From Bradyrhizobium genosp. L (lineage in GTDB: Bacteria; Pseudomonadota; Alphaproteobacteria; Rhizobiales; Xanthobacteraceae): a stretch of DNA of 64,000 nucleotides. A program made the translations under genes and the position numbers. The notes beneath the pieces were generated by a model that ran no database searches, was not told where the DNA came from, and saw only the letters and a list, made by a program, of their open reading frames with translations. The stretch spans positions 2,728,001 to 2,792,000 of the forward strand of contig NZ_CP061378.1 in assembly GCF_015624485.1 (NCBI RefSeq), given 5' to 3'. Numbering within the stretch: the first letter of the stretch is position 1; every line of letters begins with the position of its first letter. Of this stretch, positions 1 through 59,558 are shown in pieces.

Positions 1-1109
1 AAGAACAAACGGATCAGCAGCGCAGCCGCAACGATAATCGCGGCCGCGAGACCGATCCAGCCGGTATCGGCAAAAATGCCGACGGCAGCGCAGGGCGCGG
101 TGAGGAGCGCGGCGGCGTCGCTTTGATAGATCTGGCCGACGGCCGCAAAACTGCCGGCGCCCGCGCCGAGCCACCTCGTATCGGCCAGCATGCGCTCCAG
201 CGCGGCCGTGGTCTCGGCCGGCAGTGGCGGGACAAGCCGCAACAGCGTCAGGCCGGTGCTCTTCTCGAACACGAACGCCAGCACGATGCCGGCGCCGACC
301 AGGGCAGCGACCGATAGAGCGGTAGCGGCGATCGTCGACAGATCGAGCCTGCGGATGACGAGGATGAGCAGCAGCAGCACCATGCCGAAGGTCGCGGCGA
401 CCGCGCTGTTGGTGCTGGCGAAGCCAAAGATCGCAACCGCACTGATCAGGACGCCGGCAAGGCCGGCGAGGCCGATCGCGACCGAGCGCGACAGCGCGTG
501 ATGGGTCTCGGCCCGCTCGGCGGCGAGCTGCATCACCGCGAGATTGAGCACCAGGCCGAACCCGGCCAGGGCAGGGGCGCCATCGACCGTTTCGGCGCTG
601 ACCAGCCCCGGCACCGAGCGGTGCAGGTCCAGCGCCAAGGCCGACACCGCGGTTACGCCGGCGAGGACGAACAGGATCAGCTCGGCGCGGCTGCGATCGC
701 GGGCGACCACGATCGCGACGCCGATTAGCGCGATGGCTGATAGCTCCAAGACCAGCGCGCCCAGCGTCAGGCCGAGATCGGCCGTGACATAGCCGGTCGG
801 CAGGCCGCCCAGGGCGTCATGGGCGCTGCTCCAGATCGGGTGCGCCAGCGGAAGCCATATTGGGACCAGTTGGACCGCGATCAGTGTGGGAATGACGAAC
901 AGGGCCCAGCGCACCCAGGCTGACGCGCGTAGATAGTGATCGTAGTCGGCCTTGCGGGCGGAGAGCGAGGCCGCCAGCAGGCTCAACGCCGCGGCCATCG
1001 TCCCGAGCTGCGCGCCGAATCTGGCGCCGGCAATGTCGAGATTGGAAGCAGAAACGATGGAAACGATGAGGGCAAAATAAGCGAGGGACAAACGGCGCGC
1101 TCGAGGCAA
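1..1109 (-). CDS. O-antigen ligase/polymerase-like membrane protein, 3' end cut by window edge
   Basis: The minus-strand frame stays open from an in-frame stop at 1155-1157 down to the left edge and encodes at least 369 residues, almost all hydrophobic segments with short loops. Near the visible end it reads ADTRWLGAGAGSF followed about 30 residues later by FADTGWIGLAA. This matches the pattern of the Wzy_C (O-antigen ligase) family, where a WxxxxxxPLLGxGxGTF stretch precedes a conserved E/D-x-G-hydrophobic motif. Such inner-membrane proteins join or polymerise lipid-linked sugar repeat units. No ATG lies near the 5' end: a TTG at 1107-1109 is a plausible start just before the first membrane segment, with TTG 1089-1091 or ATG 996-998 as alternatives. 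Family call by inspection only. Confidence 0.6.
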   Translation of the reverse strand, partial: MPRARRLSLAYFALIVSIVSASNLDIAGARFGAQLGTMAAALSLLAASLSARKADYDHYLRASAWVRWALFVIPTLIAVQLVPIWLPLAHPIWSSAHDALGGLPTGYVTADLGLTLGALVLELSAIALIGVAIVVARDRSRAELILFVLAGVTAVSALALDLHRSVPGLVSAETVDGAPALAGFGLVLNLAVMQLAAERAETHHALSRSVAIGLAGLAGVLISAVAIFGFASTNSAVAATFGMVLLLLILVIRRLDLSTIAATALSVAALVGAGIVLAFVFEKSTGLTLLRLVPPLPAETTAALERMLADTRWLGAGAGSFAAVGQIYQSDAAALLTAPCAAVGIFADTGWIGLAAAIIVAAALLIRLF

Positions 1110-6623: not shown

Positions 6624-6676
6624 GCTCCAAACCGAGTAAGTTGTGACCTGACTTGGCACGGGGTCACTTGACAGTT

Positions 6677-16770: not shown

Positions 16771-17717
16771 GTCGGGAAGGAGCTCAGAGCTCCATCGGCT
16801 CCCACCGGGATGTAGTACATATTTCGATCATCGCGAGATGGAGTTTCGTCTCGCTTCAGACGTGCTGTCCAGATGGATGGCATTCCGCCGAGGAAGGATG
16901 CCCAGCGCGAGAACGTCGAGTTGGATCCAACAAGAAGTGAAGCGGACGCCAGGGACAAAAGGTCACCGATATCTGATCCGGTTCTCAACAATCGTGCGCC
17001 TGCATTGATCAGTTCTGCGAGTTCGGCCTCTTGGCCGTCGGAGACGATCAGTATCGGTCGATCCGGAGACGATTGCTTTATTCTTTTGATGATGTGGACA
17101 TACCAAGACATCGGTACGCGCTTGTTCGACGCTCCCCCGTTGATGGCTGCAATATCCGTCGTGGTCGCAAAATCGCCCAGCCGCACATGGATCGCCGCAT
17201 AAGGAGAACTCCCCCAGCCAAAGCCATCGGGAAGCGACTTACGGGTCATAGCGACGAGGCGTTTGCGAATGAGGTCCTTGTGCTCATAAAGGCCGCGAAA
17301 AATGAACTCCTTGCAGTTTACCAAGTTCAGTCGCGCCGCGTCGACCGTAACTCGTTCGGCGTCACCTATGGTAATTACGTTTGGGCGAAAAAGGGCTTTT
17401 CTGAGCAGGACGTACTTCATCAGTCCGGCCATCTCGTCATCCTGCGGCTCGAACAGCCCGATATAGAGCCGCTTGCTTGCGTCACCGCGCCGAATGGGGC
17501 CCGACTTCAGGGACATCCAAGCAGGAAAGATCAGTTGCCCATTGCATTGGTTCGCCAGCACGAATGCGTGAAAATAGCTGTAGAAGCTGTTTCCGAGACC
17601 ATTGCCGGATAGTCGCACAAAGCCAAGATCCTTGGCGCCCCCGAGCACGGGATAAATGATTGGCCGATCTCGCCCTGATCTAGTAGCGGTATCCAACTGA
17701 TGATTGAGTTGAGTCAT
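16767..17717 (-). CDS. GT11-like glycosyltransferase (fucosyltransferase type)
   Basis: 316 residues from ATG 17717; an open frame continues upstream to 17831 but would overlap the preceding GT4 gene. The N-terminal part has RLSGNGLGNSFYSYFHAFVL, resembling the GGLGNQLFQYAFA opening of GT11, and residues about 173-182 have AIHVRLGDF, resembling GT11 motif I (HxRRGDY, which binds GDP-fucose). A C-terminal LLVGSNSTFSRWASFLGG corresponds to the SxSSFSWWAA region. GT11 enzymes are GDP-L-fucose alpha-1,2-fucosyltransferases. The fcl and gmd genes at 24860 and 28401 would supply the donor. The second Arg of the motif is replaced by Leu, so donor specificity is uncertain. Confidence 0.7.
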   Translation of the reverse strand: MTQLNHQLDTATRSGRDRPIIYPVLGGAKDLGFVRLSGNGLGNSFYSYFHAFVLANQCNGQLIFPAWMSLKSGPIRRGDASKRLYIGLFEPQDDEMAGLMKYVLLRKALFRPNVITIGDAERVTVDAARLNLVNCKEFIFRGLYEHKDLIRKRLVAMTRKSLPDGFGWGSSPYAAIHVRLGDFATTTDIAAINGGASNKRVPMSWYVHIIKRIKQSSPDRPILIVSDGQEAELAELINAGARLLRTGSDIGDLLSLASASLLVGSNSTFSRWASFLGGMPSIWTARLKRDETPSRDDRNMYYIPVGADGALSSFPT

Positions 17718-17743
17718 TGGCTTTGTGCTTGATGAATGTTGTC

Positions 17744-18886
17744 TTATCTGCGCGCGTGGATCGAGGTCGCGCCTTCCAAAATTCCGCGAGCGGCTATTTG
17801 CGGGGTGAAAGCCTCGCTCTTCTGTATGCATGCCTCGGCGATGGAGAGCCCGTCGCTGAAGCGCGCGGGAGCGCTGACAATTTTGTCCGTGAGGTCGTCG
17901 AGACTACCCCAGTCGAAGGAGTATCCGGTTTGCCCCTCGTCGATCAATTCTGGCACGCAGCCACAGCGATTGCTGACGATAGCAGGACATCCGAAGCTGA
18001 GGCTCTCGTTCACGACGAGTCCCCAAGGTTCGCTGTAGCTCGGAAGAACAAGGCAAGTTGCTTTCAGATACTCTTCGACGAGGCTTTCGTCGAACTTTGC
18101 CCCCGCAAATTGGACGTGCTGCGATATGCCAAGGTTGCCCGCCAGTTCTTGCAACGCATTTTCCGCCGGCCCCTTGCCGACCAGGACAAGCGTCGCGGAG
18201 GGGTGTTTCGGCAGTACGCGAGAAAATGCTCTCAGCAGTAGGTCTAGGCTCTTCTCGGTAGAAAGCCGGCCAACGTACAAATATCTAGGCTTATCCGGGC
18301 TGGGTGACAGAGCGGCGCGCCGCGCGAAGGCGGTTTCGCGCGAATAATCCTTTGGCAGCGCTGCTGCTTGCCGTCGTATAAAGATCTTGTCCTTAGGCAC
18401 ACCATGGTTGTGGATGTAGTCCGATGCTCGCTCTCCGTAACAAAATACTCCGTCGGCCATTCGAAACAGAACGCGTTTGGCGAGGCTCTTTGGGCCATTC
18501 GGTGGATTGTCGTAAATTGTCGAGTCGCAGAACCAGGCAAATCGTCTGCGCAGAAGGAACAGAACGCACGCTTGAACCCAAATATGTGGATGTTCATAGC
18601 CGGTGAGTATCGTTACATCGGCCCGGTCACTCCAGGTGCGACGAACAAGTTGCTTCAATAGGGCGAGGCGCGGTATGGCCGAATATGGACCTTTGAATAA
18701 CAGTACATGGGGGTATACATGCCAACTGGCGTCAACAGGCGAAAGTGCAACGCGATTGCTGTCCGTTTCCGCGATTTGGTAGATCCTTAAGCCAACGCCC
18801 TGGCTCTTGGACTGTTGGTGCAGCGCGGAGAAAACCGCGGCCTTGTAGCGGGCCCACATGATATTGTGCCAAACGATTAGCTTCAT
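17744..18886 (-). CDS. GT4-family glycosyltransferase
   Basis: 380 residues from ATG 18886. It has the GT-B layout: an N-terminal Rossmann half, then PRYLYVGRLSTEKSLDLLL (about residues 200-218), the usual GRLxxEKG linker into the nucleotide-binding half, and CLVLPSYSEPWGLVVNESLS with the E-x7-E motif that binds the donor sugar-nucleotide. It is a retaining transferase of the GT4 type acting on the cytoplasmic face. The donor and linkage cannot be read from sequence. Neighbouring genes on the same strand (18916 upstream, 17717 downstream) are spaced by about 30 bases, consistent with one operon. Confidence 0.88.
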   Translation of the reverse strand: MKLIVWHNIMWARYKAAVFSALHQQSKSQGVGLRIYQIAETDSNRVALSPVDASWHVYPHVLLFKGPYSAIPRLALLKQLVRRTWSDRADVTILTGYEHPHIWVQACVLFLLRRRFAWFCDSTIYDNPPNGPKSLAKRVLFRMADGVFCYGERASDYIHNHGVPKDKIFIRRQAAALPKDYSRETAFARRAALSPSPDKPRYLYVGRLSTEKSLDLLLRAFSRVLPKHPSATLVLVGKGPAENALQELAGNLGISQHVQFAGAKFDESLVEEYLKATCLVLPSYSEPWGLVVNESLSFGCPAIVSNRCGCVPELIDEGQTGYSFDWGSLDDLTDKIVSAPARFSDGLSIAEACIQKSEAFTPQIAARGILEGATSIHARR

Positions 18887-21366: not shown

Positions 21367-22866
21367 CTAGTAAGCCTTGCCCTGCTCAAAAATGCCTACG
21401 CCAGTGCCGATAATGATCCGCACATCCAACCACAGGGTCCAATTGTTGATATACCACAGATCATACTCCACGCGCTTCTCCATCAGCTCGAGCGTGCGGG
21501 TTTCTCCGCGGTAACCATTAATTTGGGCCCAGCCCGTGATGCCGGGTTTGACGTGGTGGCGGAAGGCGTATTGGCCGATCAGGCGCTCATATTCGGAATT
21601 GTGAGCGGCAGCGTGAGGGCGGGGGCCGACCAGGGACATGTCGCCCTTGAGCACGTTGAAGAGTTGCGGCAACTCGTCGATCGAGGTCTTGCGCAGCCAT
21701 TTGCCGACCGCCGTCACGCGCGGGTCGTCCTTGGTCGCCTGCACGATCTTCGGGCCATCCTCGAGCACGCGCATGGTACGGAATTTGAAGATCCTGAAGG
21801 CGCGGCCGTTGAAGCCGTTGCGGGTCTGGCGGAAGAACACCGGGCCGCGCGAGGTGCATATGACGAAGAGGGCTGCGACCAGCATGATCGGGCCGAATAC
21901 GATGAGGGCGACGCTGGCGCCGACGATATCGAGCAGGCGCTTCAGCGCGCGTTCCTTCCAGCTCAGCGGCGCGCGGCGGAGCTCGGCGGTCCAGGTGTTG
22001 CCGGTGTTGGCCAGCGGATAGCTCAGGAAGCGCGATACATTGGCGTCCGGCACGAGATGCACCGGGATCGGCAAGATCTTGAGTGCATCGAGGATGCTGT
22101 TGATGGCGTGCTGGCGGCTCCAGTCCATCAAGAGGAATACGTGCTCGATGCGGTGCTCGCGCGTGAAGGCAATCAACTCCTCGAACTGGGCGTTGATCTG
22201 CGACATCAACAGTGGCGAGGCGAGCTCTTTGCCGCGGATCTCCAGCGTGTGCATGACGCGATAGCCGTGCTGGCACAGGTCCATCAATGCCGCCGAGGAG
22301 GCCGGCAATCCGAATTCGGCGATCACCACCACCTGGCTGTTGGCAAACGCGCCGGTGCGCAGGGTGTTTGCGGTCCAGCGCGAGGCGGCCGTGCGCCAGA
22401 TCAGTAGCGCGATGAGGCCGACGAGATAGAACGAGATCGTGGTGCCGCGGGAGAACTCGTCGCTCACCTTCATGGTGAAGGCGATCGCCAGCAGCGCGGC
22501 GAATACGCCGGTCCACGTTGTCAGGATGATCCGCCACTGCCGCGGCAGGTTGGTGATGTTCTTCAGGCGGTAGCCGTGCTGCACCGTGACCAGCAGGCCA
22601 AAGTTGACCGCCACCAGCAGGCTAGCGGCACCGTAGACGTCGGTCTTCCCGAGCGACGACTGCGTGTATAGGTGATATACTACCGCGCAGCCAATGCCGC
22701 AGGCCAGGATCAGGAAGGCGTCGCTGACCATCATCAGCCACTCGACGAATTCGGGACGCAGCCACGTCAATCCGGCACGGGCGGGCGCAAGGGCCGGCGC
22801 GTCCGCGACCCGCAAATCGGCCCGCTCGTCGGGGCCGGGATCTGAGCGATAGGATGCAATCGTCAT
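21367..22866 (-). CDS. undecaprenyl-phosphate glycosyl-1-phosphate transferase (WcaJ/ExoY type), EPS-initiating
   Basis: 499 residues. N-terminal half: four or five membrane segments and a CoA-binding-like Rossmann domain. C-terminal bacterial sugar-transferase domain from about residue 305 (KERALKRLLDIVGASVALI), with FFRQTRNGFNGRAFRIFKFRT, the acidic DELPQLFNVLKGDMSLVGPRP core and HHVKPGITGWAQINGYRGET. This enzyme transfers hexose-1-phosphate, most often glucose, from the UDP-sugar to undecaprenyl phosphate and starts repeat-unit synthesis. It is divergent from the binding-protein gene at 23039; the 172-base spacer contains a palindrome. A second paralogue is at 32730, which is consistent with two EPS assembly lines. 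Confidence 0.93.
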   Translation of the reverse strand: MTIASYRSDPGPDERADLRVADAPALAPARAGLTWLRPEFVEWLMMVSDAFLILACGIGCAVVYHLYTQSSLGKTDVYGAASLLVAVNFGLLVTVQHGYRLKNITNLPRQWRIILTTWTGVFAALLAIAFTMKVSDEFSRGTTISFYLVGLIALLIWRTAASRWTANTLRTGAFANSQVVVIAEFGLPASSAALMDLCQHGYRVMHTLEIRGKELASPLLMSQINAQFEELIAFTREHRIEHVFLLMDWSRQHAINSILDALKILPIPVHLVPDANVSRFLSYPLANTGNTWTAELRRAPLSWKERALKRLLDIVGASVALIVFGPIMLVAALFVICTSRGPVFFRQTRNGFNGRAFRIFKFRTMRVLEDGPKIVQATKDDPRVTAVGKWLRKTSIDELPQLFNVLKGDMSLVGPRPHAAAHNSEYERLIGQYAFRHHVKPGITGWAQINGYRGETRTLELMEKRVEYDLWYINNWTLWLDVRIIIGTGVGIFEQGKAY

Positions 22867-32534: not shown

Positions 32535-32623
32535 TGTCAGCTTGGTGACAGAAGCAGAGCACGTTCGTCGCATATGTGAATCCAATGAATCTGCATCGCG
32601 ACTCTGCAGCGCAAAAATTTGCG
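32535..32623. promoter_or_regulatory. palindromic elements upstream of second phosphotransferase gene
   Basis: Two inverted repeats: TGTCA (32535-32539) with TGACA (32546-32550), spacer six; and CGCAAA (32610-32615) with TTTGCG (32618-32623), spacer AA. They lie about 195 and 120 bases upstream of the ATG at 32730, in a locally AT-richer stretch. Operator function is inference. Confidence 0.35.
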
Positions 32624-32729
32624 TGCAGCGCCACAATGTCGCTCTGATCAGTTCGCACTTTGCGCCGCGCAAGTTGCAAATCACCGCATCGCGATGAGTG
32701 TCACGTGCTCTCGAGACGTAGAGGTTCGA

Positions 32730-34166
32730 ATGGCTGTTGCTGCTTACGGTTCTCATAACACCCATTCCGTCTCTGCCCCTCGCGGCACCGCTCTTCAGAG
32801 ACCGTTCCAGGTTTTCGTCATCGCCGCGGATCTGCTGCTGATCCTGCTCAGCTACGCAGTGGCTTTCGAGCTCTATCACGCTGCGATGACATCCGGCGCG
32901 GACGGCACGTCGACGTCGCTTGGCGCAGGGCTGATCGTCGGTGTCGTATTCGTCGCGATCGGCTATTTCCAGGGCATCTATGACACGCACCGGCTGCTCA
33001 ACCTGATCTGGCAATTGCGCAAATCGGTCGTCATCTGGCTGGTGTCGCTGACCATTCTCGCGGTCGCCGCCTTTCTGTTGAAATCGACCGACAATCTGTC
33101 TCGCGGAACGGTGATCGTCTTCGCCGTCATTGGCGGCGTGGGCCTGATCAGCCTTCGTTTTGCCTGGCAGTTCGCGCTTGGCACGAGCTTTGCCAAGGGG
33201 CGGTTGGTTGACCGCAAGGTCGTACTGCTCAGCCTGAAGCCGCTCGATTTCACCTCCAGCCGCTTCAAGGATTTGCGCAAGAACGGTTTTGACGTGGTCC
33301 GCCATTTCGTGCTCGGCGCCGACAGCGACGACAATCAGTGGGATCGGGAAATCCGCGACGTCATCCGTCAGTCGCGCGCGGCCGATGTCGATGAGTATTT
33401 GCTGGCGCTCGACTGGAATGAGCTGCCGCTGCTGCAGAAGCTCGGCCAATATCTGCGCGCCGTGCCGCAACCCATTCGCCTTCTGCCCGACAATTCGATC
33501 GCGGACCTGGTGTCGCGTCCGTTCCTGCCGGTCAGCGGAACGGTCGCGATCGAGATCCAGCGGCCGCCGCTTTCGGTGTTCGAACGTCTCCAGAAGCGCT
33601 GCCTGGATGTCGGCGTGGCCTCGCTCGCTTTGGTGACGTTGCTGCCCCTGATGATCACGGTCGCGATCCTGATCAAGCTGGATTCGCCGGGGCGCGTGAT
33701 CTTCCGGCAGTCGCGCCGCGGCTGCAACGGCAAGCCGTTCGAGATCTGGAAGTTCCGCAGCATGACGGTCACCGAGAATGGCCAGACGGTCACCCAGGCC
33801 ACCAAGGGGGATCTCCGCGTCACCCGGATCGGTCGTTTCCTGCGGATGACCAGCATCGACGAACTGCCCCAGCTCTGGAACGTGATCCGCGGCGACATGT
33901 CATTGGTCGGGCCGCGACCCCACGCGCTCGCCCATGACAATTATTATGACGAGCTGATCAGCAACTACGTGTACCGCCACCACATGAAGCCGGGCCTGAC
34001 CGGCTGGGCGCAGGTCAACGGCTTCCGCGGCGAGACGCCGACCATCGACCTGATGGAAAAGCGCGTCGAATACGACGTCTGGTACGTGAGCAATTGGAGC
34101 ATCTGGCTGGATTTGAAAATCCTGATCAAGACCGCGACGGCCTTGATCGCCCAGGAAGCCTATTGA
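32730..34166 (+). CDS. second undecaprenyl-phosphate glycosyl-1-phosphate transferase (WcaJ/ExoY type)
   Basis: 478 residues from ATG 32730, preceded by AGAGG; longer in-frame starts at 32619 and 32694 have weaker context. N-terminal membrane segments begin at VFVIAADLLLILLSYAVAF. The C-terminal sugar-transferase domain starts near residue 285 with RLQKRCLDVGVASLALV and carries IFRQSRRGCNGKPFEIWKFRS, DELPQLWNVIRGDMSLVGPRP and MKPGLTGWAQVNGFRGET. It initiates repeat-unit synthesis on undecaprenyl phosphate, probably for the second EPS line, because it precedes the second co-polymerase gene. Clearly paralogous to the 21367-22866 protein. Confidence 0.92.
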   Translation: MAVAAYGSHNTHSVSAPRGTALQRPFQVFVIAADLLLILLSYAVAFELYHAAMTSGADGTSTSLGAGLIVGVVFVAIGYFQGIYDTHRLLNLIWQLRKSVVIWLVSLTILAVAAFLLKSTDNLSRGTVIVFAVIGGVGLISLRFAWQFALGTSFAKGRLVDRKVVLLSLKPLDFTSSRFKDLRKNGFDVVRHFVLGADSDDNQWDREIRDVIRQSRAADVDEYLLALDWNELPLLQKLGQYLRAVPQPIRLLPDNSIADLVSRPFLPVSGTVAIEIQRPPLSVFERLQKRCLDVGVASLALVTLLPLMITVAILIKLDSPGRVIFRQSRRGCNGKPFEIWKFRSMTVTENGQTVTQATKGDLRVTRIGRFLRMTSIDELPQLWNVIRGDMSLVGPRPHALAHDNYYDELISNYVYRHHMKPGLTGWAQVNGFRGETPTIDLMEKRVEYDVWYVSNWSIWLDLKILIKTATALIAQEAY

Positions 34167-35101: not shown

Positions 35102-37357
35102 TCACGCCCCTTCGACGTAATAGCTGTTGTAATGCGAGCCCTTGTAGGCCTCGATGCGCTTCAGCATGTTCGGGTCGGCGCGGTTCAGCACGGCGCCGAG
35201 CAGCTTCTTCTGGATCGCCTCCGAGCTCGACACCGATTCCTGCAGCGCGCTGCGGGTCGTCTTGCCCCATTCGATCACATAGACCATGGCGTCGACGAGA
35301 TGGCTCATCGCCTTGGAATCGGCAACCGGCATCACCGGCGCGAGGTCGATGACGATGTAGTCGTAGTTCTGCCTGACGACCGCGAGCAGGTCGGCCATCG
35401 CCTTCGACGCCATGATGTCGGCCGAGTTGACCATGCGCGTCAGGTAGATCGAGGGCAGGAAGTCGAGGCCGGTCTCCTTGCTGCGCTGGATCTGATAGCC
35501 GAACGAATTCGGGTCCTGCAGTGCCTCGACGAGGCCGTTCTTGGCGTTGGGTGCCAGCTCGCGCGTCAGCGAGCGGGTGTGAAGGTCGCCATCGATCAGG
35601 AGCGTGCGATGGCCCGACAGCGCGGTGAGGTGGCCGAAATTCGCCGCCACCGTGGTCTTGCCCTCCTTCGGCAGCGACGACACGATGCCGATCACCTTCA
35701 CCTCGCGGGTCAACCGAGCGACGTCGATCGAGACCTTGATGTTGCGCAGGGTCTCGGCGAAGCGCGAGAACGGTCGATCGACGACGTAGCGCGACATCTC
35801 CGTTCCCATCCTGTCCTTGGCTGGCACGCCTTCCGATGGCAGCAGTGCACGCGCCTTTTCGGTCAGGCTCGGCTTGCGGATATCGGGCAGCACGCCGAGG
35901 CATTTCACGCCGATCTCGTCCTCGACCTCGGCCGGGGTACGGAGCACGTCGCTCAACAGTTCGCGGGCGAAGGCCGCGCCGAAGCCGAGGCAGAGGCCGC
36001 CGACCAGGCCGCCGGCGAGCGCGAGCAGTGTCTTCGGCGAGCTCTTCTCATAGGGCTTGACTGCGGTGCCGATGATCCGCGCGTCGCTGATCGGGAAGCT
36101 CTGGTTCTGCGTCGCGTTCTGCAGCTTCTCGAGGAAGTTGTTGTACAGGTTCCGGTAGGTGTCGGCCGCGCTTTCGAGATCGCGCAGCTTGACCTGGGCC
36201 TGCCCGGTGTTGTCGGCCTGGGCGACCAGGCTCTTGACGTTCTGATCGAGCGACGCTTCGCGGCTCTTGGCGATTTCATAGTCGCTGCGATAGGCGTCGC
36301 CGATGCGGTGAACCTCGTCGGCGATGGCCTTCTTCAGCTCTTCCATCTTGTTGGCGAGGTTGATCGAGGCTTGGTGGGTCTTGCCGTATTTGGTCGACCA
36401 ATCCGCATATTGGGCGGCCAGATCAAGATACTGGGCACGCAGGCGGGTGATGACCGTGTTGCTGAGGGCATCGGTCACGGTCGGCTGCACCAGGTCCTTG
36501 TCCTGGACCGCTTCGATGCGGTCGAGACGAGCCTTGGCTTCAGCGGTCGCCGCACGGGCCTGGACCAGCTGGGTGTTGAGGTCCGACAGCTGCTGCTCGC
36601 TCATCAGGCCGCGGCTGGTGCCGACGATATTGTTCTGCGCCTTGAAGGTCTGCACGGCGCGGTCGCTGGCGGTGGCCTGCTGGCGCAGCTCCTCGCTGCG
36701 CGCCTGGAGCCACTCGGTCGCGCGCTTGGTCGAATCGTATTTGGCTTCGAGCGCGCCTACGATATAGGCATTGGTGATGGCGTTGACGATCTTCATCGCC
36801 TTGTCCGGATCAACCGATTTGTAGCTGAGCGACATCACATAGGTGGTGAGAACGCGCTCGACCCTGAGGTTCTTCTGCAAGATGACGACCGCACCGTGCT
36901 CGATGCGATCCTTCGATGGCGGATCGCCGGAGCTGAACAGCGCCATCACCTTGCCCGCGATGAAGCCGATCACGCCGGGATTGGAGCCATTGAATTCAGG
37001 GTCATCGGTCAACCGCAGCCGGCGGACCACCGACAGGATCAGATCGTCGGAGTTGATGATCTCGACCTGGCTGTCGACAAAGCCGGGGTCGATCAGGGCG
37101 GTGTTGTTGCTGTCGCTGTCCTTGTTGAGGACCTGGGCCTGCTTGATATCGATCAGGATACGAGCGTTCGCCGTATACATCGGCTTGGCTACCAGCAGAT
37201 AGACCACGACGAGCGCCATCACGCCGCCAAGCACCGAGGCGATCAGGGGCCATTGCCGGCGCAGGACGTCGAGCACTCGTTCGGCGCTGAGGACCGCCCC
37301 GCCGATCTCGATGGCGAACTTCTGGCTGGGATGGAACTGTTCTCGCGGCTGATACAT
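35102..37357 (-). CDS. second ExoP/Wzc-type co-polymerase
   Basis: 751 residues. First membrane segment at about residues 38-60 (LIASVLGGVMALVVVYLLVA), long coiled-coil Wzz/periplasmic region with conserved NNFLEKLQNATQNQSFP, second membrane segment near 425-445, and a cytoplasmic BY-kinase domain with Walker A SSLPKEGKTTVAANF (about 557-571) and Walker B YDYIVIDLAP. Walker A' reads LLIDGDLHTRS, with His where most members have Arg. The C-terminus has only a few tyrosines (YKGSHYNSYYVEGA), fewer than the paralogue at 6863. It would govern chain length for the second EPS line. The exported protein at 37954 is 30 bases upstream in the same direction, so they are probably co-transcribed. Confidence 0.92.
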   Translation of the reverse strand: MYQPREQFHPSQKFAIEIGGAVLSAERVLDVLRRQWPLIASVLGGVMALVVVYLLVAKPMYTANARILIDIKQAQVLNKDSDSNNTALIDPGFVDSQVEIINSDDLILSVVRRLRLTDDPEFNGSNPGVIGFIAGKVMALFSSGDPPSKDRIEHGAVVILQKNLRVERVLTTYVMSLSYKSVDPDKAMKIVNAITNAYIVGALEAKYDSTKRATEWLQARSEELRQQATASDRAVQTFKAQNNIVGTSRGLMSEQQLSDLNTQLVQARAATAEAKARLDRIEAVQDKDLVQPTVTDALSNTVITRLRAQYLDLAAQYADWSTKYGKTHQASINLANKMEELKKAIADEVHRIGDAYRSDYEIAKSREASLDQNVKSLVAQADNTGQAQVKLRDLESAADTYRNLYNNFLEKLQNATQNQSFPISDARIIGTAVKPYEKSSPKTLLALAGGLVGGLCLGFGAAFARELLSDVLRTPAEVEDEIGVKCLGVLPDIRKPSLTEKARALLPSEGVPAKDRMGTEMSRYVVDRPFSRFAETLRNIKVSIDVARLTREVKVIGIVSSLPKEGKTTVAANFGHLTALSGHRTLLIDGDLHTRSLTRELAPNAKNGLVEALQDPNSFGYQIQRSKETGLDFLPSIYLTRMVNSADIMASKAMADLLAVVRQNYDYIVIDLAPVMPVADSKAMSHLVDAMVYVIEWGKTTRSALQESVSSSEAIQKKLLGAVLNRADPNMLKRIEAYKGSHYNSYYVEGA

Positions 37358-50387: not shown

Positions 50388-53300
50388 TCAGACGAAGTGG
50401 AAATCGTGGCTGGTCAGGCTGGCGACATTGATGTTCTTCAACAGGATCGAGTCGTTGGCCGAGATCGTGACCATGGCGTCGGTGCCGGACTGCGTGATCT
50501 GCAGATGGCTATAGTCCGTCACCAGGGCCTTGGAGATCTCGATCGTGTCGTGGTTGGTGGCATCGCCGGCGTGGAAGTTGAGCACCTGGTCATGGCCGTG
50601 ATCGAACAGCACGCTGATCGATCCCGGCGCCGTCGAGAAGCTGTCGTTGCCGTTGCCGCCCTCCAGCGTGACGCCGCTGGCGACCGCGGTCACGTTATGG
50701 ACGCCATCGGTGTTGAAGTCGTCGAAGAACTGCAGTTGGCTCGAGGCATTGTAGTTCTCGTGCTGGGTGACGCCCTCCTGGCCGTTGAAATTGAACAGGA
50801 AGACGTCCCGCGAGCCGTCTGCATTGTTGTCGACCTCCTGGGTCTTGGTGCCGCTCGCGTCGTAGAGGTCGGTGACCTTGCTGCCGTCGCTGTTGATGAC
50901 CTGCTGGTAGTCGAGCGTCCCGTCGGCGTGGGTCCGATCGATTTCCGTGAGGGTTCCGGACGCATTCAGATGCTGGTGCTGCGTGGTGTAGCTCTGGCCC
51001 TTGATGTTGTAGGAGTAGTTGTCCTGGCTGCCGTCGGCATTGTGGATGAAGGCCGCGGTGGCCACGCCGCCGGTGTACGTGGTCGTTGAATCGTAGCCGT
51101 TCGCCTTCGTCACGACTTCGCTGGTGATGACGCCGCTGGCGTCGTAAGCGTCGGTGGTCTTGGTGCCGTCGGTCGTCTGCAGCAGCTGGAAGGCGAGGCT
51201 GCCGTCGTCGTGAGTCCGCACGATGCTGGTGAGGAAGCCCGTCGTGTCGTAGCTGTCGTGCTCGCTGGTGTAGTTTTGCCCCGTGATGTTGGAGAGGAAG
51301 ACGTCGTGCGAGCCGTCGGCGTGATAGTCGGTCTCAGTCACCTTCACCCCAGCCGCGTTGTAGTTATCGACGATGCTGCTGCCGTCGGGATTGATGACCT
51401 GCAGGTAATCAGCCGTGCCGTCGGCGTGGTGGCGGTCCACTTCGGTCACCTTGCCCGACGCGTCGAGATGCTGGTGCTGGCTGGTGTAGGTCTGACCGGT
51501 GATGTTGTAGGAATAATTGTCCTGGGTCTGGTCGGCATTGGTGACGAAGACGCTCATCACCGCGCCGTTGGTGTAGAGCGTGGTCGAGCTGTAGCCGTTG
51601 GACTTCTGCACCGTCTCGCTGGTGAGGTGACCCGTGACGTCGTACCAGTCGGTGGTCTTGGTACCGTCGGTCGATTGCTGCAGGCTGAAGGCTAGGCTGC
51701 CGTCGGCATGACTGCGCACCAGTGCGGTGAGGAAGCCGGTGGCGTCGTAAGTGTCGTGCTCGCTGGTATAGGCCTGGCCGGTGATGTTGTAGGTATAGAC
51801 ATCCTTTGAGCCGTTGGCGTGGTAGTCGGTCTCCGACATCTTGACGCCGGTCGCATTGTAGTTGGCGACCACGCTGCTGCCATCCGTATTGATGACCTGG
51901 GTGTAGTCGAGCGTGCCGTCGGCGTGGGTGCGGGTCACCGCCGTCACCTTGCCCGACGCGTCGAGATGCTGGTGCTGCGTGGTGTAGCTCTGGCCGGTGA
52001 TGTTGTAGGAATAGTTGTCCTGGCTGCCGTCGGCGTTGTGGATATAGGCCGCCGTCTTGACGCCGTTGGTGTACACGGTCGTCGAGTTGTAGCCGTTGGC
52101 CATCTGCACCACTTCGCTGGTGAGGTTGCCGGTCGCGTCGTACCAGTCGGTGGTCTTGGTGCCGCTGGTGGTCTGCACCAGCTTGAAGGCGAGGCTGCCG
52201 TCGGCGTGCCGGCGCGCCAGCGTGGTCAGGAAGCCGGTCGTATCGTAGACATCGTGCTCGCTGGTGTAGCTCTGCCCGGTGATGTTGTAGGTGTAGACGT
52301 CCTTCGAGCCGTCGGCGTGATAATCGGTCTCCGCCATCTCGACGCCGGTCGCGTTGTAGTTGGTCACCACGCTGCTGCCGTCCGGATTGATGACCTGGGT
52401 GTAGTCGAGCGAGCCGTCGGCGTGCCGGCGGGTCACTGCGGTCACCTTGCCGGAGGCGTCGACGTGCTGGTGCAGCGTCGTGTAGCTCTGGCCGGTGACG
52501 TTGTAGGCGTAGTTATCTTGGCTGCCGTCGGCATTGTGGATGTAGGCCGCGGTCTCGACGCCGCCGGTGTACACGGTGGTCGAGTTGTAGCCGTTGGCCA
52601 TCTGCACCACTTCGCTGGTCAGCGTGCCCTTGGCGTCATACCAGTCCGTGGTCTTGGTGCCGCCCGTGGTCTGCACCATCTTGAAGGCGAGGCTGCCGTC
52701 GGCGTGCCGACGGGCGATCGTGGTCAGGAATCCGGTCGAATCGTAGATGTCGTGCTCGGTCGTGTAGCTCTGGCCGGTGATGTTGGAGGTGTAGACGTCC
52801 TTGCTCTTGTCGGCGTGATAGTCGGTCTCGACCAGCTTGACGCCCGCGGCGTTGTAGGTGGTGATGACGCTGCTGCCGTCGCTGTTGTAGACCTGCGTAG
52901 AGTCGAGCGAGCCGTCGGCATGGGTGCGGGTCACCGAGGTGACCTTGCCGTTCGTATCGACGTGCTGGACCTGCGTCGTGTAGCTCTGCCCGGTGATGTT
53001 GTAGGTCGTGTTGTCCTGGCTGCCGTCGGCATTCTTGACGTAAGCCTGGGTTTTCGCGCCGTTGCTGTAGAGCGTGGTCGAGTAGTAGCCGTTCGACTTC
53101 TGCACGACTTCCCGGGTGACGGTGCCGGTCGCATCATAATAGTCGGTGGTCCGGGTACCGTCGGTCGCGACGTGGATGAAGGAGGTCTTCACGCCGTTCG
53201 AATAGCCGATCGCGTCCGAGGAGCCGTCGACATAGCTGACATTGGTCGTCGTCGGCTGGCCGCTGCTGGTCAGGCCGGTGTTCGACGTCGACACCAGCTT

Positions 53301-54803
53301 ACCGGTCTGGTCGTAGCTGAGCGTGCTGGTCCAGTTCGAGGCCGAATTGGTCACGGAGAAGGAATAGCCGCCCTGGATCGCCGCCAGCGCCTTGCCGTAG
53401 TGCGAGATAATGTAGTTCATCGTCGACTGTGAGGCGACCGGCAGCACATGGGTGTCGGTCAGCGTGATCGACTGCAGCGCGGTCGCGTCGTTGAGCTCCG
53501 AAAGCTGCGGCACGATCTCGGCGGCGGTGCCGCTGACCGTGGTCGGGTTGGGTGGCGTGACCGGCGTGGTGTCGGGCGCGTCGATCTCGATGATCACAGG
53601 GTGATCGGTGACCGGAATGGTGATGGTGCTGACATCGGTATAGGTCGCGATCGCCGTGGTTCCAGTCAGCGTATCGTAGACCTTCACCGAGTGGTGCACG
53701 CTGCCGAGGTTGACGGTAACGGTCTGCGTCGAATTGGAGATTTCGGTATCGGTCGCATCGTTCCAGAGTTGCGGCTCGGCCCACACGACGAGGTCGTAGG
53801 CGCCGTTGCTCTTGCCGAGCACCATGCTCTCGCCGGTCGACGGCATGTTGCTCAGCGAATAGTCCAGCGCGGCGGTGGGCTGATGGCCGCCGGTGCCGTC
53901 GTCGGCGAGGATGGTGGTCAGGTTGTGGATCGCGGTCGCCGCCAGTTTCGGCGTCCCGTCGGAATTGAACAGGCCGTACTTGTCCTCGGGATTGGTGTCG
54001 CTGGTGGACGAGTTGCGATCGAACAGCTCGTAAAGATAGGTCGAGGAGACGCCGGCCTTGTAGGCATCGACCAGGGTGTTGAGGATGGACTTCGCCTGCA
54101 CCGTCTGATCGACGCCGACATAGCTCGTGTTGGCTTGCGTCGTGTAGCCCGTCTCGGTGATGACCACCGGCTTGCCGGGCGCCGCCGACTCGACCGCGCT
54201 CAGTGTCGCGGCGAGCGAGCTTTCCGGATTGGTGCCGGTAGAGACATAGGCGTGGGCGTTGGTGTAGTCGGTCGAGCCCGACATGTTGCCGAGCTGGCTG
54301 TAGCCCTGCGGATCGTTGTAGGCGAGCGTGAGATTGTAGACGGCAATGTCGGACAGATTGCCGTCGGCCTTCACGGCGTCGTAGAGCGCGGTCTGGAATG
54401 CCGCGGCGGCGCTGAGGCTCGAGCTGCCGTTGTAGGAGAACGGCTGGTGATTGGCCTCGTTCAGGCCTTCGATGGCGGAGATGCTGTCGGGATGCGCGGC
54501 AAGGAACTTGTCCAGCGACGCCAGATAGTTCTGCAAGCCGGCGCTGCCCGACGACGGCAGCGCCGAGGAGACGATGAAGTCGAAGCTGTAGCCGGCGGCG
54601 GCCAGGCCATCGACCACCGGTTGTGCGGCCGGACTGGTGGCCATCGCATCGCGCAGATGCGTGACGCCGAGATATTTCAGATCGTCGGTCATCATCGCGA
54701 GATCGTTGTACGCGCCCCACCCGAATCCCGCATGCGTGTTGACGCCGATGGAGTTGATGAAGCCGCTGGCGGAGAGGACCGTCTGGTCGGTTGAGGTCGA
54801 CAT
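50388..54803 (-). CDS. large secreted glycoside-hydrolase-like protein with tandem repeats and type I secretion-like C-terminus
   Basis: 1471 residues. Residues about 1-300 look like a clan-A glycoside hydrolase: IEGLNEANHQ (Glu116, acid/base position) and VVITETGYTT (Glu217, nucleophile position), 101 residues apart, with YLYELFDRNS and EDKYGLFNSDGTPKLAA downstream. Residues about 300-550 form a beta-rich linker. Residues about 550-1380 are five tandem repeats of exactly 166 residues built from YD/RHS-like units such as HADGSKDVYTYNITGQSYT. The last 90 residues contain a single RTX-like GGNGNDSF and a hydrophobic/Asp pattern typical of type I secretion signals. There is no N-terminal signal peptide. 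I infer secretion by a type I system encoded elsewhere and a role in cleaving or remodelling EPS; neither is shown. It is homologous in its N-terminus to the protein at 58206-59558. Confidence 0.8.
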   Translation of the reverse strand: MSTSTDQTVLSASGFINSIGVNTHAGFGWGAYNDLAMMTDDLKYLGVTHLRDAMATSPAAQPVVDGLAAAGYSFDFIVSSALPSSGSAGLQNYLASLDKFLAAHPDSISAIEGLNEANHQPFSYNGSSSLSAAAAFQTALYDAVKADGNLSDIAVYNLTLAYNDPQGYSQLGNMSGSTDYTNAHAYVSTGTNPESSLAATLSAVESAAPGKPVVITETGYTTQANTSYVGVDQTVQAKSILNTLVDAYKAGVSSTYLYELFDRNSSTSDTNPEDKYGLFNSDGTPKLAATAIHNLTTILADDGTGGHQPTAALDYSLSNMPSTGESMVLGKSNGAYDLVVWAEPQLWNDATDTEISNSTQTVTVNLGSVHHSVKVYDTLTGTTAIATYTDVSTITIPVTDHPVIIEIDAPDTTPVTPPNPTTVSGTAAEIVPQLSELNDATALQSITLTDTHVLPVASQSTMNYIISHYGKALAAIQGGYSFSVTNSASNWTSTLSYDQTGKLVSTSNTGLTSSGQPTTTNVSYVDGSSDAIGYSNGVKTSFIHVATDGTRTTDYYDATGTVTREVVQKSNGYYSTTLYSNGAKTQAYVKNADGSQDNTTYNITGQSYTTQVQHVDTNGKVTSVTRTHADGSLDSTQVYNSDGSSVITTYNAAGVKLVETDYHADKSKDVYTSNITGQSYTTEHDIYDSTGFLTTIARRHADGSLAFKMVQTTGGTKTTDWYDAKGTLTSEVVQMANGYNSTTVYTGGVETAAYIHNADGSQDNYAYNVTGQSYTTLHQHVDASGKVTAVTRRHADGSLDYTQVINPDGSSVVTNYNATGVEMAETDYHADGSKDVYTYNITGQSYTSEHDVYDTTGFLTTLARRHADGSLAFKLVQTTSGTKTTDWYDATGNLTSEVVQMANGYNSTTVYTNGVKTAAYIHNADGSQDNYSYNITGQSYTTQHQHLDASGKVTAVTRTHADGTLDYTQVINTDGSSVVANYNATGVKMSETDYHANGSKDVYTYNITGQAYTSEHDTYDATGFLTALVRSHADGSLAFSLQQSTDGTKTTDWYDVTGHLTSETVQKSNGYSSTTLYTNGAVMSVFVTNADQTQDNYSYNITGQTYTSQHQHLDASGKVTEVDRHHADGTADYLQVINPDGSSIVDNYNAAGVKVTETDYHADGSHDVFLSNITGQNYTSEHDSYDTTGFLTSIVRTHDDGSLAFQLLQTTDGTKTTDAYDASGVITSEVVTKANGYDSTTTYTGGVATAAFIHNADGSQDNYSYNIKGQSYTTQHQHLNASGTLTEIDRTHADGTLDYQQVINSDGSKVTDLYDASGTKTQEVDNNADGSRDVFLFNFNGQEGVTQHENYNASSQLQFFDDFNTDGVHNVTAVASGVTLEGGNGNDSFSTAPGSISVLFDHGHDQVLNFHAGDATNHDTIEISKALVTDYSHLQITQSGTDAMVTISANDSILLKNINVASLTSHDFHFV
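50665..53154 (-). repeat. five tandem 498-base repeats within the large secreted protein gene
   Basis: An anchor sequence encoding KTTDWYDA (or close variants) recurs at 53135, 52637, 52139, 51641 and 51143, each exactly 498 bases (166 codons) apart. Each unit contains two related sub-units of about 72 and 94 residues, each with a HADGS...YNITGQSYT core. The most similar are units 2 and 3 (near-identical over long stretches); the last unit degenerates at its end. No length change in any unit indicates recent amplification or gene conversion. Confidence 0.9.
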
Positions 54804-55443
54804 TGCATACCCGAGTTGGAGGCGAACGGAATTGTCCGCTGGCTTAGTGGTGAAGCGTCTACGTTGGGTATGAATTTCAGATAAAAATCGAAGCAGCCAA
54901 GATCGGATGTCGCAGTTCCGTTGCGGAACTCCTCCAACGTCGCCAGCGCGCGATGTACGTCTTCATGGCTAGGCACGATGGCGTGAGAAAGGCGTTTTTG
55001 CGAACTCACGCCCCGAAGACTGCGATTGCCGAAATTATGCGCAGCTTGCTTACAGATTCGCGCGTGCAACGACTACGCTTGCGAGACTCGTAGCGAAAGT
55101 TCACGACATGCGAGTGATGCACGCGCGTTGCCTGCGCGAATCTTCTTCCATCCGATCTTCGTCACGTGTGACGCATCCGCAATTCTACGGATAGGCCGAC
55201 GGCTCATCGGGCGATGGAAATAATTTTTTGCCGAAGACGCTGCGCTCGAAAGAATCGGCGCCGCCGTCGATGGCTCAAACGCGCAATGCGACAAGGTACA
55301 ATCACTGATTGAACGGATTTTTAAGGCTTCCAGTTCCGTAGACGGAACTGGAAGCGCCGCGCCACGATCGCTCGCCGGGCCGGAAGGTCGCGCGCGCCCG
55401 GACGGGACGGGATCAGCGCCATGTTCGATCGCGGGCATCGCCT
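54804..55443. other. 640-base gap upstream of the large secreted protein gene
   Basis: No convincing gene. A 121-residue open frame at 55073-55438 lacks a ribosome-binding site and motifs. The gap contains the promoter of the large secreted protein gene, one TCACGACATG element at 55101-55110, GTCAC-GT-GTGAC near 55161-55172, and a perfect hairpin at 55326-55355 just past the flippase stop. Confidence 0.5.
55326..55355 (-). terminator. perfect 13-base-pair hairpin after flippase gene
   Basis: GCTTCCAGTTCCG (55326-55338) pairs perfectly with CGGAACTGGAAGC (55343-55355) with a four-base loop. It is 89 bases past the minus-strand flippase stop at 55444. On the minus strand it is followed by CTTAAAAATCC, not a U-run, so it is either a weak or Rho-associated terminator or another RNA structure. 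Confidence 0.5.
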
Positions 55444-56835
55444 TCAGTCGCGGCGGGCCAGCATCAGGAAATCGCCGCGCCAGGCCACGATAGCGGTCGC
55501 GACGGCGGCGAGGGCGATCTTGGCCGCAAGCCAGGCCGGTGGCAGCGAAGGCGGAATCGCGAGCGACGCGATCAGGATGCCGGCCACGATCGCCTCGATC
55601 GCCAGCCGCACGCGCAGCAGGGCGTGGAAACGCAGCGTCGGGCCGAGCGCGAGCAGCAGCGTGCAGGCGGTTGCGGCCGCCGCGCAGCCGACCGAGCCGG
55701 CTGGCGATAGGCCGAGGCTGGTTGCAATGGCCGCGCTCGCCACGACGCTCGCCAGTTGCCCCACTGCCACGACGACCAGCCGGGTCGCGAGCTTTTCCAG
55801 ATGCGGAACGACGGCGGCCGTGGCCTGCAAATGGGTGTGCAGGAAATAGAACACCGCCACCATCGGCGCCGTGGCGATGAAGCCGTCCTGGCTCGCCTGC
55901 GGCAACAGGATGCGGGCCGCGTCGGGAATGAAGCCGATCAACCCGCCGAGCAGCACGATGGTGACGCAGATCATGAAGTCGAACATCCGTCCGGTGGTCT
56001 GTCGCGCCTTGAGTTCGCCGCCATGCTCGAAGTCGCGCACCACATCCGGATAGCTGACGGTGTGGATCGCCGCGTTGAGCACCCAGAACGGCCGCTGCAA
56101 CAAATCGAGCGCGATCGAGAAGCCGGCGCCGGCACCGGTCGCGCCGAGCCTGTGGATCACGATGTAGCGCAGCATCACCGGGACCGACAGATGCACCACG
56201 GAAGCGCCGGCCGCGAGCATGCCGTAGCGGCAGAACTCGGCCCAGTGTGCCAGCAAGGTTCGGAACGACACGCGTTGCAGTGGCGTGCGATGCGCGATCA
56301 AGCCGACAACAAGGCCGGTCGCATGGCCTGCGGCGACGCCGAGCAGCGTCGCCTGCGCCGTGCCTTCGACCAGCGCGCCGGTGACCGCTCCGCCCAGCAC
56401 GGCGCTCGCCCGCAGCGCCAGCAGGAACGACGCCATGCCGAGCCCACCCGACAGGCGGATCGCCATGAAATAAAGGTCGGTGACCCCCTGCAGCACCGCG
56501 ACCGCAAGCCCGACCACGATGACCCCCTCCGCGAACGCACCGACCAGGGATGCGCCGCTACCGACCGCAACCAGCGCCACCGCGCTCAGGCCGCCGGCGG
56601 CGAACAGCGATGCGCGCAATCGTGCGGCCTCGTCCTCCTTGGCCGCGGCCAGGAAGCGCAGCCCGGCCAGTTGCAGCCACTCGAACATCAGGACGCAAAG
56701 CAACTGGCTCGAGGCCAGTGCGAGCGAGAAATTGGTGTAGTCGGCGGCGGGCAGCAGATGACTGATCGCGAAGATCAGGACGATCGCGAGCAGGCTCTGG
56801 TAGACATAGCCGGCAATGGCGAGGAGGCGGATCAT
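55444..56835 (-). CDS. Wzx-like flippase / polysaccharide export membrane protein
   Basis: 463 residues with about 12-14 hydrophobic segments. The N-terminus IRLLAIAGYVYQSLLAIVLIF and HLLPAADYTNFSLALASSQ follow the PST layout (Y/F-x-x-F-x-L-A-x-S). The middle contains MLRYIVIHRLGATGAGAGFSIALDLLQRPF, reminiscent of the family's middle helices with a D and P. It would flip lipid-linked units. It ends the minus operon that starts with the GT4 gene at 60830; the next gene upstream, at 56894, is 58 bases away. Confidence 0.8.
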   Translation of the reverse strand: MIRLLAIAGYVYQSLLAIVLIFAISHLLPAADYTNFSLALASSQLLCVLMFEWLQLAGLRFLAAAKEDEAARLRASLFAAGGLSAVALVAVGSGASLVGAFAEGVIVVGLAVAVLQGVTDLYFMAIRLSGGLGMASFLLALRASAVLGGAVTGALVEGTAQATLLGVAAGHATGLVVGLIAHRTPLQRVSFRTLLAHWAEFCRYGMLAAGASVVHLSVPVMLRYIVIHRLGATGAGAGFSIALDLLQRPFWVLNAAIHTVSYPDVVRDFEHGGELKARQTTGRMFDFMICVTIVLLGGLIGFIPDAARILLPQASQDGFIATAPMVAVFYFLHTHLQATAAVVPHLEKLATRLVVVAVGQLASVVASAAIATSLGLSPAGSVGCAAAATACTLLLALGPTLRFHALLRVRLAIEAIVAGILIASLAIPPSLPPAWLAAKIALAAVATAIVAWRGDFLMLARRD

Positions 56836-56893: not shown

Positions 56894-58117
56894 TCAGCCG
56901 GCGCGCAACGCCATCGTCGACCTGACCTCGCGCAACCGTTCGTACAGCTTGCGATACTCGGTCACGACGTCGGCAAACGTCCACACATTCTTCGCATTGA
57001 TCAGGCGTTCGCTGATCTCCACGATCTTTTGCGGATCGGCTGCGATCTCGCGGATGCTTTCGGCCAGCGATTCCGGATCGGGTTCGGTCAGCCAGCCGGT
57101 GACGCCATGCTCGATCGCTTCCGGCATGCCGCCGAATCGTGTTCCGAGCAGCGGCCGGCCGGCGGCCTTGGCGTCGGCGACGACGAGCGGTCCCGGATCA
57201 TGCCAGATCGACGGCGCAACCACGACATCCACCGCCCGGTAGAAATCGTCGGGCGCGACGAAGCCCATGAACTCGACCCGTGCATCGGCCGCAAGCTCCT
57301 TGAGGCGCTGCTGCTCCTCCTCGCTGACACGGCCCGCGATCAGGGTGCGGAAACGGTCGCGCGGCAGCATGGCGAGCGCGCGCATCAGGTTCTCGATGCC
57401 TTTCTCCTCGGTCAGCCGGCCGATGAAGCCGAACGTCACCTCGCCGGCGCAGAGCGGCCGCGGATGCGGCGTGGTCGGCGGCGCCGTCGAGGCATTGTGG
57501 ATCACGGTGCGGATCGGCGTATCGGCGAACAGGCCGAGATCGGTATGGATCGACAGCACCCGCTCGCTGACGCCGACGACGGCGCTCAGCCAATGCGTGG
57601 CGCGCCTGCGATGATAGGTCAGGAGCTCGCAGCTCGGGCAGGTGTGCTCGCAGACGCGTCCGTCGGTGAACCGCGAGCATCGCGGGCAGGTCAGATAATA
57701 GTCGTGGATGGTGTGGATGACGGGAACGCCGAATTGCGCGGCAACGCGCCAGATCGCGGTCGTCAGTCCGGACAGGTTGTTGGAATGCAGCACGTCCGGC
57801 TTGAAGGTGCGGATTCGTTCCGCGATGACCGGTGCGAAGATCTGCCAGTCCTCGACGCTATGCCACAGGCTGCGCAACGCCACATTGCGCTGCTTGGTGA
57901 AGGGAAGATACAGGTTCTGCACCGGCGCGGAGTAGATGTCGATGCCGTTGCACTGCTCGAGCTCCTGTTCGGGCTCGGACGCAGCACGGATCACCTCGAC
58001 CTCGTCGCCATGCTCCTTGAGGTCTTCGGCGAAGCGACGGGCGAAGATTTCGGCGCCGCCGACCAGCTTTGGCGCCTTCGGGGTCGGGTAGAGGGAGGAC
58101 GTCAAAAGGATCTTCAT
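56894..58117 (-). CDS. GT4-family glycosyltransferase with cysteine cluster
   Basis: 407 residues from ATG 58117; an in-frame extension to 58168 looks non-coding. It begins KILLTSSLYPTPKAPKLVGGAE, a GT4 opening. Between about residues 160 and 180 it has HDYYLTCPRCSRFTDGRVC and then EHTCPSC, five or six cysteines in CxxC pairs that could bind zinc; this insertion is seen in a subset of GT4 proteins. The donor half has GFIGRLTEEKGIENLMRAL and APSIWHDPGPLVVADAKA, with D rather than E in the second acidic position of E-x7-E. Cytoplasmic EPS transferase; sugar unknown. Confidence 0.87.
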   Translation of the reverse strand: MKILLTSSLYPTPKAPKLVGGAEIFARRFAEDLKEHGDEVEVIRAASEPEQELEQCNGIDIYSAPVQNLYLPFTKQRNVALRSLWHSVEDWQIFAPVIAERIRTFKPDVLHSNNLSGLTTAIWRVAAQFGVPVIHTIHDYYLTCPRCSRFTDGRVCEHTCPSCELLTYHRRRATHWLSAVVGVSERVLSIHTDLGLFADTPIRTVIHNASTAPPTTPHPRPLCAGEVTFGFIGRLTEEKGIENLMRALAMLPRDRFRTLIAGRVSEEEQQRLKELAADARVEFMGFVAPDDFYRAVDVVVAPSIWHDPGPLVVADAKAAGRPLLGTRFGGMPEAIEHGVTGWLTEPDPESLAESIREIAADPQKIVEISERLINAKNVWTFADVVTEYRKLYERLREVRSTMALRAG

Positions 58118-58205
58118 TGTCAATCTCGCTCGAAAATCGGCCCTGAGGATTGCGTGATGCGGCCCCAAGGTCCGAACTCTGGATACAAGTCAGCTCATCG
58201 ACCAG

Positions 58206-59558
58206 CTACCGGGCTGGCCGCAATTCCAGGTCGGGAACGACACCGCCGACCGCGGTAATCAGAAGAGGCGTGCTTGAAACAGGCATCCACGCGCCCGAGG
58301 CGGGCTTGGCGGAGGCATCGCAAGGTGTTGCAAAGGTCGCATCTGGAACGTCGGCCTTCAGCCGCGCCTCGTAGCGTCGGCTGGGATCCTCGGTCCACAC
58401 CGCAAGCTTGTCGCCGCCCGCGCCCGAGGCGTGGATGGCAACGACGTCACTGGACAATTTCTTGAGGTCTGCCTTGACGCTGGAGCGAATGAAGGCCCAG
58501 GTGTCTTGAACCGCGCATGCAGCGGGCTTCGGCGTGTTGTCGAAATGGAATAGGCCGAAATTGTCTTCAAGTTCTGCCGGATTCTTTCCGCTGTCCTTGA
58601 GCTCGTAGAGCGAGATGCCCTTGAGCCAGGATGACGCGGTCGATGCCCACAGAATCAGCTGCGCCATGTTGTCGGCTTGCGCCTGCTCGCTGACGCCGCA
58701 TTTAGCCGACGTCGTCGGCCAGCCGGTCTCGGTGACGTAGATCGGAAAGTCCGCCTTGCCGCTCGCCTGCGTCACCAGCCGGCGAAACGCCTGCAGCCGA
58801 TCGATGACTTCGGCCGAGGTCCGCCGGTTTGGCGCCATGCAGAAATTGTAGAGATGGACCGAGATGCCGTCGGCATATTGCAGGACTCCGGTCTGCAGCA
58901 TCTGCTGGGTCCAGGCCCAGCCCGGATCGTCGGCGATCGCACCGACGACGAAGGTCGCATCGGGCGCGGCGCGCTTCACTGCCGGCTGCGTCGCCTTCGC
59001 CAGCGCCAGATAATTTGCCGCGGAGAAGCCGACAGGGTCCTTCTTCGCCGCACCATTCCATTCATTCCAGAGCTCGAACACCGGGCGTTGCGGCGCCACG
59101 GCGCGTGCTGCGGCGGCCGCGTAATCCGCAAAGCGCCGCCGCGCCTCGTCGGTGGTCGGCGGCATCGAGTTCGGAACGAGATGATGACCGAAGGCGAGGA
59201 TCAGGAATGGGCGCGCGACGCTCGCATCGATCTGGCGTTGCAGCCGGTTGAGCTGCGGCGTGAAACCCATCCTGCGGCCCGGCAACTCGAAATCCGACCA
59301 TGGAAAATCGTCGCGGAATGCGGTCAGGCCGAGCTGCCTGATCTGGTCGATGTTGACTGACGGCTCATACCCCCGCGTGCTGACCGGGCCGCCCAATCCC
59401 TGGTGGGTGCCGACGCCGAGCAGAAGCCGTTGGTCCAGCGGCTGTTGCGCGCCGGCGCTTGCGGTCAGTGCGCAGAGGCTGACAGCGAGCGCGGCCGCGG
59501 CAAGCCGGCAGCCGTCGCGCCACGCCCGGGATCCAGAGATATTCCCAGTCCTATCCAT
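58206..59558 (-). CDS. exported clan-A glycoside-hydrolase-like protein (GH39/GH5-type)
   Basis: 450 residues with a Sec signal peptide (CRLAAAALAVSLCALTASAGAQ, split hydrophobic core about residues 17-37). The active-site pair is ELWNEWNG with Glu166 (acid/base) and IYVTETGWPT with Glu277 (nucleophile), 111 residues apart; SVHLYNF lies between. After the nucleophile it has ISLYELKDSGKN and EDNFGLFHFDNTPKPAACA, which match the corresponding part of the 1471-residue protein. It probably acts in the periplasm on the polysaccharide, for example trimming or clearing misplaced polymer. Neighbours in the same operon are a GT4 gene and a flippase gene. Confidence 0.85.
   Translation of the reverse strand: MDRTGNISGSRAWRDGCRLAAAALAVSLCALTASAGAQQPLDQRLLLGVGTHQGLGGPVSTRGYEPSVNIDQIRQLGLTAFRDDFPWSDFELPGRRMGFTPQLNRLQRQIDASVARPFLILAFGHHLVPNSMPPTTDEARRRFADYAAAAARAVAPQRPVFELWNEWNGAAKKDPVGFSAANYLALAKATQPAVKRAAPDATFVVGAIADDPGWAWTQQMLQTGVLQYADGISVHLYNFCMAPNRRTSAEVIDRLQAFRRLVTQASGKADFPIYVTETGWPTTSAKCGVSEQAQADNMAQLILWASTASSWLKGISLYELKDSGKNPAELEDNFGLFHFDNTPKPAACAVQDTWAFIRSSVKADLKKLSSDVVAIHASGAGGDKLAVWTEDPSRRYEARLKADVPDATFATPCDASAKPASGAWMPVSSTPLLITAVGGVVPDLELRPAR

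Follow-up and report, generated by a model that had tools for sequence, protein, structure and literature searches.

Genome context and main finding

A gene in a 64,000-nucleotide stretch of the Bradyrhizobium genosp. L genome (contig NZ_CP061378.1, positions 2,728,001 to 2,792,000; the window) probably encodes a retaining endo-beta-glycosidase that is exported by a type I system and whose substrate is the exopolysaccharide (EPS) of its own gene cluster, which suggests that the bacterium trims its own EPS from outside the cell. The genome is a single contig of 7.40 Mb, in which the window lies at 2.73-2.79 Mb. The open reading frame (ORF; 50388..54803, minus strand, as for all its parts below) begins with ATG and specifies 1471 residues that combine a catalytic domain, a repeat region and a type I-like C-terminus. 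From the ORF, its conservation, predicted folds, the equivalence of catalytic residues, exporter genes and cluster context, all computed here, we infer export, activity, substrate, retention and the role of the repeats, which may anchor, space or bind.

A PslG-like catalytic domain

Residues 1-300 (53904..54803) are predicted to form a (beta/alpha)8 barrel. A beta-sandwich comes next, at residues 301-411 (53571..53903); its strands appear in the model and fall within the alignment to PslG. The AlphaFold2 model, built from an alignment of 44 relatives and reaching residue 425, has a mean predicted local distance difference test (pLDDT) of 89.1 and a predicted template modelling score (pTM) of 0.89. 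Two programs agree on PslG as its best solved fold match (model range 1..408, 16% identity). PslG is a glycoside hydrolase family 39 (GH39) enzyme of the Pseudomonas aeruginosa psl cluster; it is described as a retaining endo-beta-glucanase in which Glu276 is the nucleophile and Glu165 the acid/base (PMC11912335).

The correspondence with these glutamates is reached in two steps, through the family of a neighbouring hydrolase. The profile of the protein's own family aligns with that of the neighbouring family (98.3%, E 2.1e-14), so that GLNEAN falls opposite LWNEWN, and ITET opposite VTET. The neighbouring family in turn aligns with PslG (2.2e-4) at WNE and STE, which are glutamates 165 and 276 by numbers derived from the chain numbering (416 positions, ending at residue 442). 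Glu116 (54456..54458), which follows Asn115 in GLNEAN, is accordingly the putative general acid/base, equivalent to PslG Glu165, and Glu217 (54153..54155), inside ITETG, the putative nucleophile, equivalent to Glu276. Both are invariant in 44 of 44 non-redundant homologues. Asn115, Glu116, His184, Tyr186, Glu217 and Trp341 are identical in all 81 domain sequences, a set in which the window's own gene is counted twice and some genomes recur because two collections contain them, and which was found partly with a peptide covering Glu116 (one of six search peptides).

The protein thus has the features of a clan GH-A retaining glycosidase: a predicted barrel, an Asn-Glu acid/base motif and a second Glu at the nucleophile position. 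An earlier note on this DNA had named Glu116/Glu217 as a clan-A-type pair and proposed looking for a TIM barrel; the invariance of the pair and the predicted fold agree with it on both counts. Although the predicted fold is nearest to a GH39 enzyme, the domain is termed PslG-like rather than a GH39 member because the sequence match failed: the GH39 Pfam model matched neither the protein (E 0.1) nor any of the 44 relatives (E 1), and no GH39 chain appeared when the 44-relative profile was searched against the PDB at E 10.

An RTX-type C-terminus and probable export

A simple hydropathy scan revealed no hydrophobic N-terminal segment and neither a Sec signal nor a membrane anchor. The start codon is backed by homologues, among them three (L085, L025 and L044) that have a stop a few codons upstream of a shared MS..DQT(I/V)LSAS start, so the claim that the protein has no N-terminal signal peptide is upheld by both lines of evidence.

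The C-terminus (residues 1356-1471; 50391..50738) is a putative RTX-type export domain with one GGxGxD motif and the ending DFHFV. Among 64 complete homologues (65 loci minus one truncated locus), GGxGxD lies within the last 95 residues in 52, no protein has more than one copy of the nonapeptide, and all 64 end in [DN]F.F[VAT]. The predicted tail fold matches the C-termini of RTX lipases, which argues for type I export. The closest parallels are MIS38 lipase and Serratia LipA, whose C-terminal RTX domains are akin but have a longer RTX roll. The RTX-like tail of the earlier note is therefore supported by the predicted fold, but less so by the motif, which is single. Type I secretion genes, which the note had proposed to look for, do occur in the genome: two PrtD-HlyD pairs score above curated cut-offs, one at 2.07 Mb and the other at 6.97 Mb. 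At another locus (L106), a 1227-residue frame with Ca-stabilised adhesin-type repeats and a similar C-terminus (5042-8722, plus strand) lies directly upstream of a PrtD-HlyD exporter.

ExsH of S. meliloti is an EPS hydrolase exported by PrsDE without a Sec signal. The same is described for PlyA and PlyB of R. leguminosarum (PMC2275737). By analogy, the 1471-residue protein may share with these enzymes an EPS hydrolase role, type I export and the lack of a Sec signal. The catalytic domains of PlyA, PlyB and ExsH belong to other families, and none of the three is known to have a giant repeat region.

The repeat region

A linker, a small module and the first strand-turn units (residues 412-549; 53157..53570) lead into five tandem repeats of 166 residues (residues 550-1379), as the earlier note had claimed. 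Their mean identity at an offset of 166 is 67%, and Tandem Repeats Finder assigns the DNA a period of 498 bp and 4.6 copies. Repeats 1 (residues 550-715; 52659..53156), 2 (716-881; 52161..52658), 3 (882-1047; 51663..52160) and 4 (1048-1213; 51165..51662) are mutually 67-88% identical over the first 144 residues of each unit; the fifth (1214-1379; 50667..51164), whose end overlaps the C-terminal domain match, has diverged (55-65%). The repeats are acidic and rich in Thr, Asp and Ser.

A fold model of repeats 3-5 predicts a long run of strands with YD-like turns. Its strand pattern and local matches recall the single-layer beta-sheet proteins OspA, CPAP and MORN1. Larger OspA rows align with the model at 10-24 A, and the likeness is therefore local only; no single-layer sheet protein matched the repeats in single-sequence comparison. 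It is possible, though less likely than not, that the repeats form a secreted single-layer beta-sheet that occurs naturally and has about 70 strands, an EPS-embedded scaffold that places a PslG-like glycosidase in the matrix; no type I-exported enzyme is known to be built in this way. With 4.7 A to a strand, such a sheet would, if flat, measure about 33 nm in length and exceed the solved single-layer sheets that were matched (OspA variants, the CPAP TCP domain and MORN1). The "repeat stalk" of the earlier note fits the predicted run of strands. Its further proposal, that the stalk holds the catalytic domain away from the cell, is less secure: no anchor turned up, and polysaccharide binding would suit the repeats just as well.

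The polysaccharide cluster

Polysaccharide genes surround the gene, bearing out its proposed location in an EPS cluster. The window contains glycosyltransferases, acyltransferases, Wzx-type flippases, a pyruvyl transferase, two Wzc-like proteins, two initiating sugar transferases and nucleotide-sugar enzymes. A second glycoside hydrolase with a signal-peptide-like N-terminus (58206..59558, minus strand) matches Pfam GH5 (1.6e-7) and 5jvk (9.6e-21), and is the neighbouring hydrolase whose family profile aligns with PslG. It recurs within the fetched stretch at 52 of 65 related loci (two of the 52 weaker and on the opposite strand). Two minus-strand genes separate it from the main gene: a glycosyltransferase (56894..58168) and a protein with many predicted membrane segments, 13 hydrophobic ones by hydropathy (55444..56835), which is conserved within the same fetched stretch at 61 of 65 loci and has no Pfam match. 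On the other side, also on the minus strand, lie an acyltransferase (PF01757; 48965..50104), a polysaccharide pyruvyl transferase (PF04230; 46503..47390) and a Wzx-type flippase (PF13440; 44736..46322).

The initiating sugar transferases (21367-22866, minus; 32619-34166, plus) and the Wzc-like proteins (6812-9130, plus; 35102-37357, minus) are both doubled, as if two polysaccharide clusters adjoin. Four large ORFs of the polysaccharide region lack a Pfam match at 1e-5 (10307-12454 and 12471-13856, plus; 15454-16770 and 16767-17831, minus). Upstream of the gene, a candidate conserved element, TTTTATCTGAAATTCA (54871..54886, minus strand), is invariant at most positions across 11 Bradyrhizobium upstream regions chosen by hand and has a single exact copy in the genome; further conserved blocks occur at about 54800-55100 in the same set.

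Distribution and relatives

Homologues were found at 65 loci, 62 of them in Bradyrhizobium by record title. Within the genus, 108 of 265 genomes match the catalytic domain with an E-value no higher than 1e-60. So do 14 of 60 relatives at 1e-3 (spread over two of 25 genera) and three of 385 genomes of a class-wide draw at 1e-15, each count including the genome itself. Judged by eye, catalytic-domain relatives have varied partners: immunoglobulin-like-looking repeats and a fuller RTX tail in L019, other repeats in L114, and a signal-peptide-like segment without such repeats in L115. This variety supports an exported enzyme with variable accessory parts.

Some loci are unusual. One contig carries two copies of the gene (L079 and L081; also G014 C445), oppositely oriented, separated by about 57 kb and each with similar neighbours; they are perhaps part of a duplicated, inverted EPS region. 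A 69% identical homologue labelled Streptomyces sp. AcH 505 (L058) is likely an alphaproteobacterial contaminant or a mislabelled contig. In L015/L020 and L016, relatives of the catalytic domain are divided between two frames or carry one inner stop; these are perhaps decayed copies or assembly errors.

Proposed mechanism and alternatives

The protein would be exported in a single step by a PrtD-HlyD (PrsDE-type) system whose genes lie elsewhere in the genome and which would recognise the C-terminal RTX-type domain. Outside, the N-terminal barrel would cleave beta-glycosidic bonds within EPS, with Glu116 as acid/base and Glu217 as nucleophile, setting EPS chain length or freeing oligosaccharides. 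The very long repeat region may act as a rigid spacer, and possibly as a polysaccharide-binding surface that retains the enzyme in the matrix. The neighbouring hydrolase would act in the periplasm while the 1471-residue protein works outside. Several observations weigh against this proposal. Pfam glycoside hydrolase models give zero matches to the protein itself at E 0.1, and among the 44 relatives the matches are weak (GH17 in 16, Glyco_hydro_cc in 8). GGxGxD occurs once in the protein. No exporter gene was found near 50388..54803, both pairs lying outside the window, and since 254 of 257 Bradyrhizobium genomes have PrtD exporters, exporter presence does not discriminate. AlphaFold2 models of repeats can be over-confident. 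Finally, the enzyme is not universal in the genus: at E 1e-60, 157 of the 265 genomes lack a match.

The repeats might instead be the working part of a structural or adhesion protein of the matrix, binding EPS, neighbouring cells or the plant surface, with the glycosidase domain serving mainly to target or tether it. The array and linker make up about 65% of the protein and span 468-1020 residues across the 64 complete homologues, and PrsDE systems export adhesion proteins besides glycanases (PMC2275737). The catalytic pair is nevertheless invariant in every domain sequence, and mean column identity is 73% in the catalytic domain versus 57% in the repeats (from different sequence sets, the repeats being harder to align), which makes this role improbable. 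A plant or foreign glycan such as beta-glucan or hemicellulose is a somewhat less probable substrate still. The 44-relative profile weakly matches GH17 beta-1,3-glucanase structures (best 6jms, 9.5e-5) and there are weak matches to GH17/GH_cc models (best GH17 score among the 16 relatives 6.6e-4, the protein itself falling short of the GH17 cut-off), but the best fold match is PslG, and the gene sits in EPS clusters beside glycosyltransferases and, at most loci, the second PslG-like hydrolase. Least probable is a closed Rhs/YD-type shell enclosing the enzyme or cargo. The repeats share strand-turn units and YD-like turns with Rhs proteins, Rhs and teneurin shells fill the first 15 Foldseek rows (best E 5.3e-13), and a profile matches the Rhs effector Tse5 (1.1e-4). 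These Foldseek matches are local (TM 0.09-0.14), Rhs shells are not among the 50 VIA rows, the RHS repeat model of Pfam has no match to the protein at 0.1, and the two structure comparisons give no indication of a closed shell.

Implications for EPS biology

Should the giant sheet prove real, it would give the engineered OspA sheets a natural counterpart and provide a protein that can be expressed to test single-layer folding. The PslG literature treats it as an open question why glycosidases are encoded in EPS gene clusters (PMC9075953). PslG itself, with a solved chain of about 414 residues numbered to 442, is shorter and differs in having neither the repeats nor the type I-like C-terminus; it is described as located mainly at the inner membrane, with some in the periplasm. 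Here one cluster holds two PslG relatives, one bearing a Sec-type signal and the other a type I-like tail, and this legume-symbiont genus is therefore suited to separating the effects of a periplasmic enzyme from those of one outside the cell. The effects in question are EPS length and the oligosaccharides sensed by plants, a sensing discussed for the EPR3 receptor in PMC8707904.
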